Shown here: one piece after another, positions 31,567-36,316 of the stretch
How positions within the stretch are numbered: the first letter of the stretch is position 1
How the letters are laid out: every line of letters begins with the position of its first letter
From: Opitutaceae bacterium
Lineage (GTDB): Bacteria > Verrucomicrobiota > Verrucomicrobiia > Opitutales > Opitutaceae
Assembly: GCA_030693515.1 (NCBI GenBank)
Contig: JAUYAK010000063.1
Location: 1 to 64,000 of the forward strand
Direction: 5' to 3'
DNA: 64,000 nucleotides
Notes under the pieces: generated by a model
Databases searched by the model: none
What the model saw: the letters and a program-made list of their open reading frames with translations, nothing else
Told to the model about the DNA's origin: nothing
Position numbers and translations under genes: made by a program

Positions 31567-31594
31567 CCCGGTGCGGCCTGCTTGCCGCCCGGTG

Positions 31595-31610
31595 GCCGAA
31601 GCGTTTCGGC
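31595..31610. terminator. Hairpin between the SUMF1-like gene and pyc
   Basis: GCCGAA-GCGT-TTCGGC forms a 6-bp stem. It lies 29 bases after the upstream stop. No clear U-tract follows. Confidence 0.3.
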
Positions 31611-31662
31611 TTCGCGCTTGCTCACCCCCGGCTTCTCGCCAATTCACGGAAGCGTTTTTCCC

Positions 31663-34600
31663 ATGCCCACCGCCAAGCCTTTTCCCTCTCCCGCCTCACC
31701 CAACGTGCGCCCCATCAAGAAACTGATGGCCGCCAACCGCAGTGAGATCGCCGTGCGCATCTTTCGCGCCGGCACCGAGCTGAATTTGCGCACCGTCGCC
31801 GTCTTCGCCCACGAGGACCGCCTTTGCATCCATCGCTACAAGGCCGACGAGGCCTACCAAGTCGGTGCCGGCAAGGGCCCCGTCGCCGCCTACCTCGACA
31901 TCGACAGCATCGTCGCCGTCGCGAAGGAAAAGGGCGTCGATGCCATCCACCCGGGCTACGGTTTCCTCTCGGAAAACGCCCATTTCGCCCGCGCCTGCGC
32001 CAAGGCCGGCGTCATCTTCGTCGGCCCGCGCCCCGAGCTGCTCGACATGATGGGCGACAAGACCGCCGCCCGCGCCCTCGCGCAGAAGATCAACGTCCCC
32101 ACCCTCCCCGGCACCGAGAATCCCATCACCGATCGCGACGAGGCGTTGAAGACCGCCAAGTCGATCGGGTTTCCGCTCATCATCAAGGCCGCCTTCGGTG
32201 GCGGCGGCCGCGGCATGCGCGTCGTCCACAAGCCCGGCGATCTCGCGAACCTGCTCGACGAGGCGCAGGGCGAGGCGGAGCGGGCGTTTGGCAATCCCGC
32301 CGTCTTCCTCGAGAAATACATTCCGCGCGCGAAGCACATCGAGGTGCAGATCCTCGGCGACCAGCACGGCAACGTCATCCATCTCCACGAGCGCGACTGC
32401 TCCGTGCAGCGCCGCCACCAAAAGGTGATCGAGGTCGCGCCGAGTTTCGGCCTGCCCGAGAAAATCGTGAACGAACTCTGCGACGCCGCCGCCCGCATGG
32501 CCCGCGAGATCCGCTACGACAACGCCGGCACCGTGGAATTCCTCTACGATCTCGACCGGCACGAGTGGTTCTTCATCGAGATGAACCCCCGCATCCAGGT
32601 CGAGCACACCGTGACCGAGGTCATCACCGGCCTCGATCTCGTGCGCGCGCAGATTCTCATCGCGCAGGGCCACTCGCTGCACTCCGAGGAAGTCGGCATG
32701 CCGCGCCAGGGCGACGTCCCGCGCAACGGCTACGCCATCCAATGCCGCATCACCACGGAGGATCCGGAGAACAAGTTCATGCCCGACTACGGGCGCATCA
32801 TCGCCTACCGCTCGCCCGGCGGCTTCGGCGTGCGGCTCGACGGCGGCATGGGCTACTCCGGCGCCGTCATCACGCCGTTCTACGACTCGATGCTCGTGAA
32901 GAGCATCACCAGCGGGCAGACCTACGACATGGCGATGCGCCGCGCGCACCGCACGCTGAGCGAGTTTCGCATCCGCGGGGTGAAGACCAACATCCCCTTC
33001 CTCGAAAACGTCATCGCCCACCCGCAGTTCCGCGCCGGCCAGGCGACGACCACGCTGATCGACACCACGCCCGAGCTGTTCACCTTCAAGCCCCGCCGCG
33101 ATCGCGCGACCAAGCTGCTCACCTTCCTCGGCAACGTCATCGTCAACGGCAACCCGCACGCCAAGGGCTACCGGCCCGACAAGCCGTTCCCGCCGGCACC
33201 AGTGCCGTCGTCGGTCATCGGTCATGGGTCAAAGGTCATGGGTAAAAACCCATCACCCATCACCCAAGACCTATCACCCGGCGCGATTCCGCCCGGGACC
33301 CGCGATCTCCTCCTGAAACTCGGGGCCAAGAAATTCGCTGATTGGACGCTCAAGCAAAAGCGCCTGCTCATCACGGACACCACGTGGCGCGACGCCCACC
33401 AGTCGCTCATGGCCACGCGCGTGCGCAGCTACGACATGCTCGCGACCGCCGACGCCGTCGCGCGCCGCACGCCCAACCTCTTCTCGCTCGAGATGTGGGG
33501 CGGTGCGACCTTCGACACCGCGATGCGTTTCCTCAGCGAGGATCCGTGGGAGCGCCTGCGCCAGCTCCGTGCCCGCGTGCCGAACATCTGTTTCCAGATG
33601 CTGTTTCGCGGCGCCAACGCCGTCGGCTACACCAACTATCCCGACAACGTCGTCGCCGGTTTCGTGAAGCACGCCGCCGCGAGCGGCATGGATATTTTCC
33701 GCGTCTTCGACTCGCTCAACTACCTGCCCAACCTACGCGTCGCGATGGAGGCCGTCAACGAGACGCACGGCGTCTGCGAGGCCGCGCTCTGCTACACCGG
33801 CGACATCCTCGACGAGCGCCGCGACAAGTTCTCCCTCCAATACTACGTGAAGATGGCGAAGGAACTGGAGCGCATGGGCGCGCACTTCCTCGCGATCAAG
33901 GACATGGCCGGCCTCTGCCGCCCCTACGCGGCCGCGAAGCTCGTGAAGACGCTGAAGGAAGAGGTCGGCCTCCCGATCCATTTTCACACGCACGACACGA
34001 GCGGCATCGCCGCCGCCAGCGTGCTCCGCGCCGCCGATGCCGGCGTGGACATCGTGGACCTCGCCCTCGCCTCGATGAGCGGCAGCACCTCGCAGCCCAA
34101 CCTCAACTCCGTCGTCGCCGCGCTGCAAAACACCCCGCGCGATCCGCAGCTCGATGTCGGCACGCTCAACGAGTTCTCCGACTACTGGGAGACCGTGCGC
34201 GAGTATTACCGGCCGTTCGACACCGCGCCCAAGAGCGGCTCCGCCGAGGTCTATCTCCACGAGATGCCCGGCGGGCAATACACCAACCTCAAGGAGCAGG
34301 CCGCCGCGATGGGCGTCGCCCAGCGCTGGCCCGAGATCGCGCGCACCTACGCCGAGGTGAACCAGCTCTTCGGCGACATCGTGAAAGTCACGCCGTCGTC
34401 GAAAGTCGTCGGCGACATGGCGCTCTTCCTCTTCACCAAGGGCATCAAGCCCGCCGATGTCGTGAACCTCGAGCCCGGCTCCACCGCCTTCCCCGAGAGC
34501 GTGATCGACATGATGAGCGGCGGCCTCGGCTGGCCCGAAGGCGGTTGGCCGGAGAAGGTGTCGCTCGTCGTCCTCGGCGAAAAACGCCACAAGGAAGCGC

Positions 34601-35307
34601 GGGCGAAATATGCGGCGGCGATGGCCGCCGCCAAGGTCATGGGTCATCGGTCAAAGGTCATGGGCAAAAGGAACCCATCACCCCTCACCCCTAACCCATC
34701 ACCCAGTGCGAGTCTCGATTTGGAAAAAGTCCGCACGGAGTTATCGGACAAGCTCAAGCGCCCCGCCACGGACGACGACGTTTACTCGCACCTCATGTAT
34801 CCCCAGGTCTTCGCCGACTACGCGAAGCACGCCGCGGCCTACAGCGACGTGAGCGTGCTGCCCACGACGGCGTTCTTCTACGGCCTCAAGCCCGGCGAGG
34901 AAATCTCCGTCAACATCGAGGAGGGCAAGGTCCTCATCATCCGCCTCATCTCCGTCGGCGCGCCCGACAAGGAAGCCCGCCGCGCGATCAGCTACGAGCT
35001 CAACGGCATCGGCCGCGAGACCTCCATCCTCGACAAGAGCATCTCGCCGAAAACGAAGGCCCGCCCGAAGGCCGACCTCGCCGATCCCACGCAAGTCGCC
35101 GCCCCCATCCCCGGCCTCATCGCCACGCTCCAAGTCAGCGTCGGCACCAAGGTCAAGAAGGGCGACAAGCTCCTCATGATGGAAGCGATGAAGATGCAGA
35201 ACACCGTTTACGCTCCCTGCGACGGCGTCGTGGCAGAACTTCACGTCGCGCTTGCCGACACGGTCGAGGCGAAGGATCTGCTGATCAAGATACGGGCGGC
35301 CGGATAA
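31663..35307 (+). CDS. pyc: Pyruvate carboxylase
   Basis: Pyc adds bicarbonate-derived CO2 to pyruvate to give oxaloacetate, using ATP and biotin. The 1214-residue protein has the biotin carboxylase domain (about residues 20-475; G-G-G-G-R-G-M and E-K-Y-I-P-R-A-K-H), the carboxyltransferase TIM barrel (T-D-T-T-W-R-D-A-H-Q-S near 575, H-F-H-T-H-D-T-S-G later), the tetramerisation domain and the biotin domain with M-E-A-M-K-M at the end. ATG 31663 is chosen because upstream residues are not family-like. Two linkers hold in-frame repeat-encoded peptides at residues about 514-543 and 990-1016, both reading S-K-V-M-G-K ... N-P-S-P. The frame stays open, so the enzyme is probably active. Confidence 0.95.
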   Translation: MPTAKPFPSPASPNVRPIKKLMAANRSEIAVRIFRAGTELNLRTVAVFAHEDRLCIHRYKADEAYQVGAGKGPVAAYLDIDSIVAVAKEKGVDAIHPGYGFLSENAHFARACAKAGVIFVGPRPELLDMMGDKTAARALAQKINVPTLPGTENPITDRDEALKTAKSIGFPLIIKAAFGGGGRGMRVVHKPGDLANLLDEAQGEAERAFGNPAVFLEKYIPRAKHIEVQILGDQHGNVIHLHERDCSVQRRHQKVIEVAPSFGLPEKIVNELCDAAARMAREIRYDNAGTVEFLYDLDRHEWFFIEMNPRIQVEHTVTEVITGLDLVRAQILIAQGHSLHSEEVGMPRQGDVPRNGYAIQCRITTEDPENKFMPDYGRIIAYRSPGGFGVRLDGGMGYSGAVITPFYDSMLVKSITSGQTYDMAMRRAHRTLSEFRIRGVKTNIPFLENVIAHPQFRAGQATTTLIDTTPELFTFKPRRDRATKLLTFLGNVIVNGNPHAKGYRPDKPFPPAPVPSSVIGHGSKVMGKNPSPITQDLSPGAIPPGTRDLLLKLGAKKFADWTLKQKRLLITDTTWRDAHQSLMATRVRSYDMLATADAVARRTPNLFSLEMWGGATFDTAMRFLSEDPWERLRQLRARVPNICFQMLFRGANAVGYTNYPDNVVAGFVKHAAASGMDIFRVFDSLNYLPNLRVAMEAVNETHGVCEAALCYTGDILDERRDKFSLQYYVKMAKELERMGAHFLAIKDMAGLCRPYAAAKLVKTLKEEVGLPIHFHTHDTSGIAAASVLRAADAGVDIVDLALASMSGSTSQPNLNSVVAALQNTPRDPQLDVGTLNEFSDYWETVREYYRPFDTAPKSGSAEVYLHEMPGGQYTNLKEQAAAMGVAQRWPEIARTYAEVNQLFGDIVKVTPSSKVVGDMALFLFTKGIKPADVVNLEPGSTAFPESVIDMMSGGLGWPEGGWPEKVSLVVLGEKRHKEARAKYAAAMAAAKVMGHRSKVMGKRNPSPLTPNPSPSASLDLEKVRTELSDKLKRPATDDDVYSHLMYPQVFADYAKHAAAYSDVSVLPTTAFFYGLKPGEEISVNIEEGKVLIIRLISVGAPDKEARRAISYELNGIGRETSILDKSISPKTKARPKADLADPTQVAAPIPGLIATLQVSVGTKVKKGDKLLMMEAMKMQNTVYAPCDGVVAELHVALADTVEAKDLLIKIRAAG
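33212..33280. repeat. In-frame repeat inside pyc, copy 1
   Basis: The sequence has GGTCATGGGT-type repeats followed by ACCCATCACCC repeats, with the hairpin ATGGGT-AAAA-ACCCAT at 33238-33253. It lies in the linker between the biotin carboxylase and carboxyltransferase domains. It encodes G-H-G-S-K-V-M-G-K-N-P-S-P-I-T. Confidence 0.85.
34635..34705. repeat. In-frame repeat inside pyc, copy 2
   Basis: This is the same type of repeat as copy 1, with GGTCAAAGGTCATGGG followed by ACCCATCACCC. It lies between the carboxyltransferase and C-terminal domains. It is read in the same frame as copy 1, giving G-H-R-S-K-V-M-G-K-R-N-P-S-P-L-T. Confidence 0.85.
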
Positions 35308-36030: not shown

Positions 36031-36105
36031 ATCGCACCGTTCTCATCGCGCCGCTCCACGTGAGTGTCGGCACCAAAGTCGCGAAGGGCGACAAGCTCCT
36101 CATGA

Positions 36106-36136
36106 CCGTGTCCTGCGTAGCCTCAGCGAAGCAGGA
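36106..36136. repeat. Small hairpin insertion 1 in the biotin-domain copy
   Basis: A 31-base insert, ccgtg followed by the hairpin TCCTGC ... GCAGGA (36111-36136), lies directly after ATGA. The intact pyc gene shows the empty site, where ATGA runs straight on into tggaagc. Confidence 0.8.
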
Positions 36137-36148
36137 TGGAAGCGATGA

Positions 36149-36180
36149 CCGCGCCCTGCGAAGCCTTGGGCGAAGCAGGG
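36149..36180. repeat. Small hairpin insertion 2 in the biotin-domain copy
   Basis: A 32-base insert, ccgcg followed by the hairpin CCCTGC ... GCAGGG (36154-36180), also lies directly after ATGA. The stem differs from insertion 1 by one compensated pair. The pyc copy has the empty site. Confidence 0.8.
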
Positions 36181-36316
36181 AGATGCAGAACACCGTCTAC
36201 GCCCCCCCTGCGACGGCGTCGTCGCCGAACTGCACGTCGCCCTCGCCGACACGGTCGAGGCGAAGGATCTGCTGATTAAGATTCGAACCACCGCGTGAGA
36301 TCCTTCGCACCTCCGG

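Follow-up and report, generated by a model that had tools for sequence, protein, structure and literature searches.

How can the gene of a housekeeping enzyme hold two hairpin-forming repeats and still be read through from end to end? The question is raised by the pyruvate carboxylase gene (pyc) of an Opitutaceae bacterium (assembly GCA_030693515.1), which occupies positions 31582–35307 of the forward strand in the stretch analysed here, namely the first 64,000 nucleotides of contig JAUYAK010000063.1 (the window). A sequence-only reading of this DNA had described two palindromic repeats in the gene, translated in the same frame and both placed in linkers between catalytic domains, and had compared them with the palindromic elements of Rickettsia. 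The repeats are real, since both sequences can be read directly and one uninterrupted open reading frame (ORF), seen in the ORF list and covered by Pfam matches, contains them both. Each is better described as two facing arrays of 7-base units (heptads) than as a single 70-bp palindrome, and hairpins of the same type are dispersed over the genome, where one pair of arms encloses a gene of the family PF05635.

Two heptad hairpins in the pyc gene

Element 1 (33213–33279, forward strand) is translated in frame as part of the peptide ...VIGHGSKVMGKNPSPITQDLSP..., and consists of a left arm at 33213–33243 (GGTCATC GGTCATG GGTCAAA GGTCATG GGT), the loop AAAA, and a right arm at 33248–33279 with inverse heptads of the ACCCATC type (ACCCATC ACCCATC ACCCAAG ACCTATC ACCC). 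Element 2 (34635–34705, forward strand) is also in frame, within the peptide ...VMGHRSKVMGKRNPSPLTPNPSPS..., and its arms lie at 34635–34664 and 34673–34705 of the same strand. Both elements follow the scheme (GGTSATS)n-loop-(inverse)n, with degenerate GGTSATS heptads running toward the loop and their inverse after it. Tandem Repeats Finder gives a period of 7 on all four arms, and RNA folding yields z scores of −7.2 for element 1 and −3.2 for element 2.

The Pfam matches of the gene (31654–35304) comprise Biotin_carb_N, CPSase_L_D2, Biotin_carb_C, HMGL-like, PYC_OADA, and Biotin_lipoyl. Element 1 lies between Biotin_carb_C (residues 363–470) and HMGL-like, in agreement with the interdomain placement claimed earlier; element 2 (residues about 994–1018), on the contrary, falls within the PYC_OADA match (866–1096) and thus not strictly between Pfam domains. 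This match spans 231 residues, compared with about 200 profile positions. The enzyme presumably tolerates both inserts without loss of function.

Pyruvate carboxylase (PYC) sequences were aligned for 21 proteins (that of the window, 18 from the same genus and two from the same order), out of 38 genomes with some match to the query. No insert similar to element 1 was found among the 19 relatives whose alignment covers its position (17 of the same genus; genome G021 is cut there), nor was any insert similar to element 2 in the 19 relatives aligned over its stretch (again 17 of the same genus; G010 is cut there). The PYC of G018, with an identity of 95% in the search and of 92.4% with tblastn over the inserts, also lacks both. 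The two linkers vary in length across the genus, and those of G004 and G002 hold other expansions, heptad-free by eye. The comparison with related pyc genes therefore agrees with the sequence-only reading, no relative being found with the same linker residues encoded by unrelated DNA.

A dispersed family of GGTSATS hairpins

The expectation that the repeat should recur elsewhere is borne out, both within and between genes, by the genome to which the window belongs (G000; 6,646,699 bases in 130 contigs; most of the genomes compared are drafts). The motif GGTCATGGGT occurs 23 times in these 6.65 Mb, against 0 for its reversed control, while a 24-base heptad pattern allowing up to three mismatches has 39 matches, against 0 for the reversed control. 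In the window itself, 31 sites lie within one mismatch of GGTCATGGG, with a shuffle mean of 14.6 and 24 sites in the largest shuffle. Ten GGTSATS places were recognized by these pattern searches, by which more degenerate copies were possibly missed. Nine are hairpins with both arms; at the tenth, the arms surround a gene for a 23S rRNA intervening-sequence protein (IVP). The arms around the IVP gene are on contig C7, three places are on C58, and C52, C67, C91, C94, C101, and C108 hold one each. RNA folding of the nine hairpins gives z scores between −2.3 and −7.2, and between 0 and 3 of 200 shuffles fold as well. Lone GGTCATGGGT matches on C23, C44, C56, C59, C75, C99, C106, and C112 are array-free motifs excluded from the count, as are the matches with two mismatches on C33 and C37, which were not read.

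Four of the ten copies lie within genes and in frame: the two in pyc, one in metH (C67), between the B12-binding and Met_synt_B12 domains, and one in a helicase gene (C52), between the PD-(D/E)XK and DEAD_2 domains. Three of these four (pyc element 1, metH, and the helicase gene) are thus located between Pfam domains, and the metH insert is common to G000 and G018. A match in UvrA (C10:13477–13500), considered by pattern as a fifth in-gene copy, was rejected, as similar residues are present ungapped in G018 and G014. The other six places are intergenic or at gene ends, as judged from the frames, and include the junctions pgk-tpiA, pdhA-pdhB, and fabV-dtd, gene names that are our reading of the translations.

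How such hairpins can be translated follows largely from their period. Because 7 is not divisible by 3, stop-poor heptads in a pure array leave all three frames open, and a pure heptad array encodes one cyclic heptapeptide whichever frame is used. The heptads GGTCATG and CATCACC are free of stop codons, while GGTGATG and CATGACC contain them; a stop effect of heptamers in all three frames had been noted for TAACTGA repeats (PMC4679880, available text). The four real copies are imperfect and leave one or two frames open on the sense strand (2, 2, 1, and 2) and none on the opposite strand. Survival within a gene would consequently depend on a total length that keeps the frame and on the stop-poor orientation, with GGTCATG/CATCACC on the sense strand, a simple explanation for the read-through of hairpins in a housekeeping enzyme. 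As the sequence-only reading had stressed, both pyc copies do share one reading phase, which is also that of the helicase copy; since the cyclic peptide of a pure array does not depend on the frame, this argument carries little weight. The metH copy is in another phase, and the common phase of the pyc copies needs no special explanation.

The same places in relatives are occupied in diverse ways. The GGTSATS type is common to G000 and G014 at pdhA-pdhB, and to G000 and G018, with drift, at fabV-dtd. At pgk-tpiA, G008 holds a hairpin of GAGTAGC-type heptads with 18 of 18 positions paired; the inverted repeat of G014 is of another type, that of G018 is weak, and G013 has none. At the metH place, a diverged hairpin is found in G018, a short one-sided pyrimidine array in G008, and no hairpin in G013 or G014. 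The helicase linker is likewise variable, being shorter in G018 and holding other inserts in G013 and G014. A change of heptad class at a single place has been described for the P6b stems of the Nostoc trnL intron, which form a hairpin from either of two heptad classes, one replacing the other in place; that hairpin occupies just one site, within a group I intron, unlike the dispersed family described here (PMC4476775, available text).

Beyond these relatives, matches to GGGTSATGGGT-loop-ACCCATSACCC were found in 58 stretches of named contigs, including those of Nitrospirae, Chloroflexi, Proteobacteria, Acidobacteria, and Cyanobacteria. Some of these are chance matches, because no heptad triplet was found genome-wide where Ktedonobacter and Streptomyces matched the pattern. 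Heptad triplets were present in 29 of the 31 genome handles counted, with up to 1,242 in one of them (control, 60), figures that do not represent a prevalence, as the 31 were mostly picked as pattern matches and G014 and G048 are apparently the same genome. The excess over the reversed control is weak in G059 (6 versus 5), G047 (16 versus 8), and G052 (43 versus 20), and in G046 the control (73) exceeds the matches (42). A Prevotellaceae genome (G061:C216:7771–7916) also has about 20 GGTRATN heptads arrayed on one side only, with no facing arm of that pattern counted.

The nearest relatives found for this family are the heptameric inverted repeats of Xanthomonas and Nostoc, together with the flanks of PF05635 genes. 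The former (GGGAATC and GGGGA(C/T)T) also consist of 7-base units, preferably four, and are G-rich, dispersed, and close to gene ends, with 70 and 75 convergent inverted pairs in two Xanthomonas genomes (PMC4692102, available text). The family described here resembles them in its tandem arrays of about four 7-base units and in its dispersed convergent inverted pairs. For their under-representation on the coding strands of ORFs, the comparable figure here, a raw count, is the 4 of 10 copies read through. No link to PF05635 appears in the available text of PMC4692102, according to which the functional role of dispersed heptameric repeats awaits elucidation. The TAACTGA repeats of Beggiatoaceae are also heptamers, patchily distributed over distant lineages and in some cases inside ORFs; unlike the hairpins described here, they are direct repeats (one inverted set is reported), the majority just upstream of gene starts (PMC4679880).

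Heptad borders of PF05635 genes

At C7:15948–16360, GGTSATS arms enclose a PF05635 gene, whose product, a four-helix bundle IVP, matches XCC0516 (PDB 2GSC) with an E value of 1.1e-18. XCC0516 originates from Xanthomonas campestris, a species with described dispersed pairs of GGGAATC heptads. An IVP gene within a stem formed by terminal inverted repeats is likewise known from the intervening sequences (IVSs) of 23S rRNA, which carry an S23p/IVP ORF; they have been called parasitic or selfish, with mobility proposed, and replace a hairpin loop, an rRNA tetraloop, while their function and origin are said to remain unclear (PMC4990558, available text). The arrangement differs here in that the stems are heptad arrays, which the available text of PMC4990558 does not describe for IVSs, and in that elements lie in pyc and not in rRNA. 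The C7 copy has the IVP gene inside the stem, and the two pyc copies are gene-less.

This association extends far beyond one locus. PF05635 loci were drawn from ten genomes, from a phylum survey (a match in 220 of 288 genomes, 199 over the cut-off) and from picked stretches, giving 120 loci, of which 117 are complete, including two (L256 and L351) below the curated cut-off. With at least 17 of 20 required within 260 bases, facing inverted repeats border 76 of the 117 genes, compared with 1 of 117 outer windows and 1–3 when the flanks of different loci are paired. Periodicity is as marked: the flanks are periodic at lag 7 in 71 loci and at lag 8 only in 11 more, with either a repeat or periodicity in 93. 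Among the first 98 loci, 58 have a lag-7 flank (two control window sets give 10 and 3), and in 196 flank windows the counts (versus control) are 87 (10) at lag 7, 17 (1) at lag 8, and 41 (7) at lag 14, all other lags giving 1 or 2. In the ten genomes, facing inverted repeats are found at 21 of 29 IVP genes and at 0 of 24 HTH_3 genes (30 fetched, six dropped as cut or short).

These borders share the anatomy of the pyc hairpins. Arms have a median length of 4.4 units, 71 of the 138 scored arms measuring between 4 and 5, and among the 76 bordered loci the inward strand has more G than C in 66, less in 6, and equal amounts in 4. The heptad itself usually differs from GGTSATS and is characteristic of the locus, with a similarity of 5.70 between the two sides of one locus (n = 51), compared with 3.39 between loci. 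It is also often common to similar proteins: heptads are shared in 37% and 47% of the IVP pairs more than 60% identical (the two highest identity classes comprise 38 and 19 pairs), and in 1–4% of the pairs below, with a Mantel r of 0.22 between protein and heptad that none of 2000 permutations attained.

Several further features of these loci can be mentioned. Identical or almost identical heptads occur on both arms in different genomes at L247/L354, L284/L289, and L306/L308. A minority of loci (L264, L320, L321, L329, L336, and L342) show apparent 8-base arm units by eye. Long upstream frames that might have indicated an in-frame nesting of IVP elements within other genes were judged by eye to be due to chance in G+C-rich DNA, and this arrangement was rejected.

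Origin of the hairpins and candidate agent

According to the favoured reading, to which an even chance is given, the pyc hairpins belong, as copies without a gene, to a dispersed family whose short hairpins consist of facing arrays of about 4–5 degenerate heptads (GGTSATS in this genome). The same class would form the borders of PF05635 genes, in most cases with a heptad that differs from locus to locus, and its copies would enter, or replace sequence at, tolerant sites such as gene spacers and loose protein linkers. The simplest joint reading of both sets of observations is a single class of structured elements, some with an IVP gene and some lacking it. Within it, copies presumably move, and the IVP protein may recognize the heptads and drive their spread or upkeep, although the role of the IVP as agent of the heptad hairpins is put forward as a proposal. 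Internal deletion of an IVP copy as the origin of the gene-less ones was rejected, no common inner sequence being visible by eye.

A bolder version of this reading, unlikely as a whole, would make PF05635 proteins the trans-acting part of a widespread, unrecognized class of mobile hairpins, in which gene-less hairpins such as those of pyc are moved or placed by IVPs. Each IVP (the solved relative is a pentamer) would read its own heptad array with about one unit per subunit, the code shifting as the proteins diverge, and might target existing hairpins, replacing the heptad type at the same site. Avd of the diversity-generating retroelements resembles PF05635 proteins in sequence and structure, is said to be homologous to them, and acts together with a reverse transcriptase during retrohoming (PMC10053308, available text), so that an RNA-linked role of the IVP is thinkable by analogy. 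The association between dispersed heptads and IVP genes makes two questions testable, namely which protein recognizes the heptads and by what they are moved, and possibly points to an unrecognized kind of mobile DNA. Literature searches, whose coverage left out most subscription papers and which are thus no proof that the association is unpublished, found no paper joining PF05635 genes to heptad arrays.

Several results weigh against the favoured reading. No IVP-gene remnant, nor any inner sequence shared with the IVP copy, was seen by eye in the loops of the gene-less copies, and neither a target-site duplication nor an exact empty site, the marks of a MITE or transposon, could be read at pyc, where the linkers are too diverged for the edges to be placed. 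Inverted repeats fall below the threshold at 41 of the 117 IVP loci, 24 of which have neither repeat nor periodicity; an Rfam scan of 20 of these 41 found no rRNA. The HTH_3 flanks were measured from a 55-residue domain and are partly intragenic, for which the 400-base window, still with 0 of 24, is a partial cure, and the Mantel test retains shared host ancestry and includes a few near-duplicate loci. Moreover, GGTNATN arms are present on both sides of only 2 of the 120 IVP loci, L244 (G000) and L251 (G064). They are absent from the fetched IVPs of G014 (5), G041 (2), G042 (13 of 14), G045 (4), G056 (2), G062 (1), and G063 (1), all of them genomes rich in GGTNATN triplets. A strict pairing of GGTNATN hairpins and IVP within each genome, seen only in G000 and G064, was therefore rejected, which implies that one IVP serves many heptad types, that the helper has been lost or is unassembled, or that the IVP is not the agent.

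The main rival is tentatively regarded as possible. It takes the hairpins for ordinary heptameric simple-sequence repeats, grown by slippage and provided with an inverse arm by fold-back template switching, with nothing mobile involved and with IVP genes landing in, or tolerating, such places. Slippage is the cited cause of heptameric repeats in PMC4692102 (available text), and it accords with the differences in unit number and the heptad drift at the same place (fabV-dtd in G000/G018, pdhA-pdhB in G000/G014, metH in G000/G018), as well as with the abundance of GGTNATN hairpins in the seven genomes whose fetched IVPs lack such arms. However, slippage alone does not spread one heptad type to the ten scattered sites of this genome; the arms of like type at one IVP locus, and the borders that are frequent at IVP genes and missing at HTH_3 genes, also speak against this rival. 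It probably contributes to the number of units.

Three further explanations fare worse, and are taken here from the less to the more improbable. The hairpins are very unlikely to be regulatory structures or G-quadruplex motifs that control a neighbouring gene, with the in-gene copies accidental. The copies at the three named gene junctions and the GGG runs at 7-base spacing would suit such a role, G-quadruplex formation being reported for the related GGGAATC repeats (PMC4692102, available text), but heptad position 7 often interrupts the G run, and relatives hold other repeat types or none at the same junctions. Mobilization as REP-like elements by a Y1 (RAYT-type) transposase has a slighter probability still. 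The genome has seven PF01797 matches, at least three with inverted repeats in their flanks, and the size and intergenic habit of the hairpins recall REPs; nevertheless, the arms are heptad arrays rather than one conserved palindrome, and a GGTNATN pair was found within about 1.5 kb at none of the seven Y1 loci (one of them cut), on which grounds this mobilization was rejected. Three of these loci (L094, L096, and L098) have inverted repeats of 18–20 of 20 between their flanks and show no heptad period by the threshold applied.

The palindromic elements of Rickettsia are short hairpins read in frame within conserved genes, and occur mainly within protein-coding genes. The likeness seen by the sequence-only reading holds for behaviour, the pyc inserts being palindromic, in frame, and absent from relatives, but not for the family, which differs in its heptad anatomy, its spread over phyla, and its intergenic majority. 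The least probable explanation, that of protein-coding palindromic elements selected for in-frame insertion, can point to the four in-frame copies, three of them in the same phase, and fails on the six of ten lying between genes, on the deviating phase of metH, and on a frame neutrality that follows from the period.

Downstream of pyc, the window also contains a degenerate second copy of the biotinyl domain (36037–36285), 86–92% identical in pieces. Within it, two small REP-like hairpins (36106–36180), each ending in GCGAAGCAGG, flank an apparent remnant of the biotin-site stretch.

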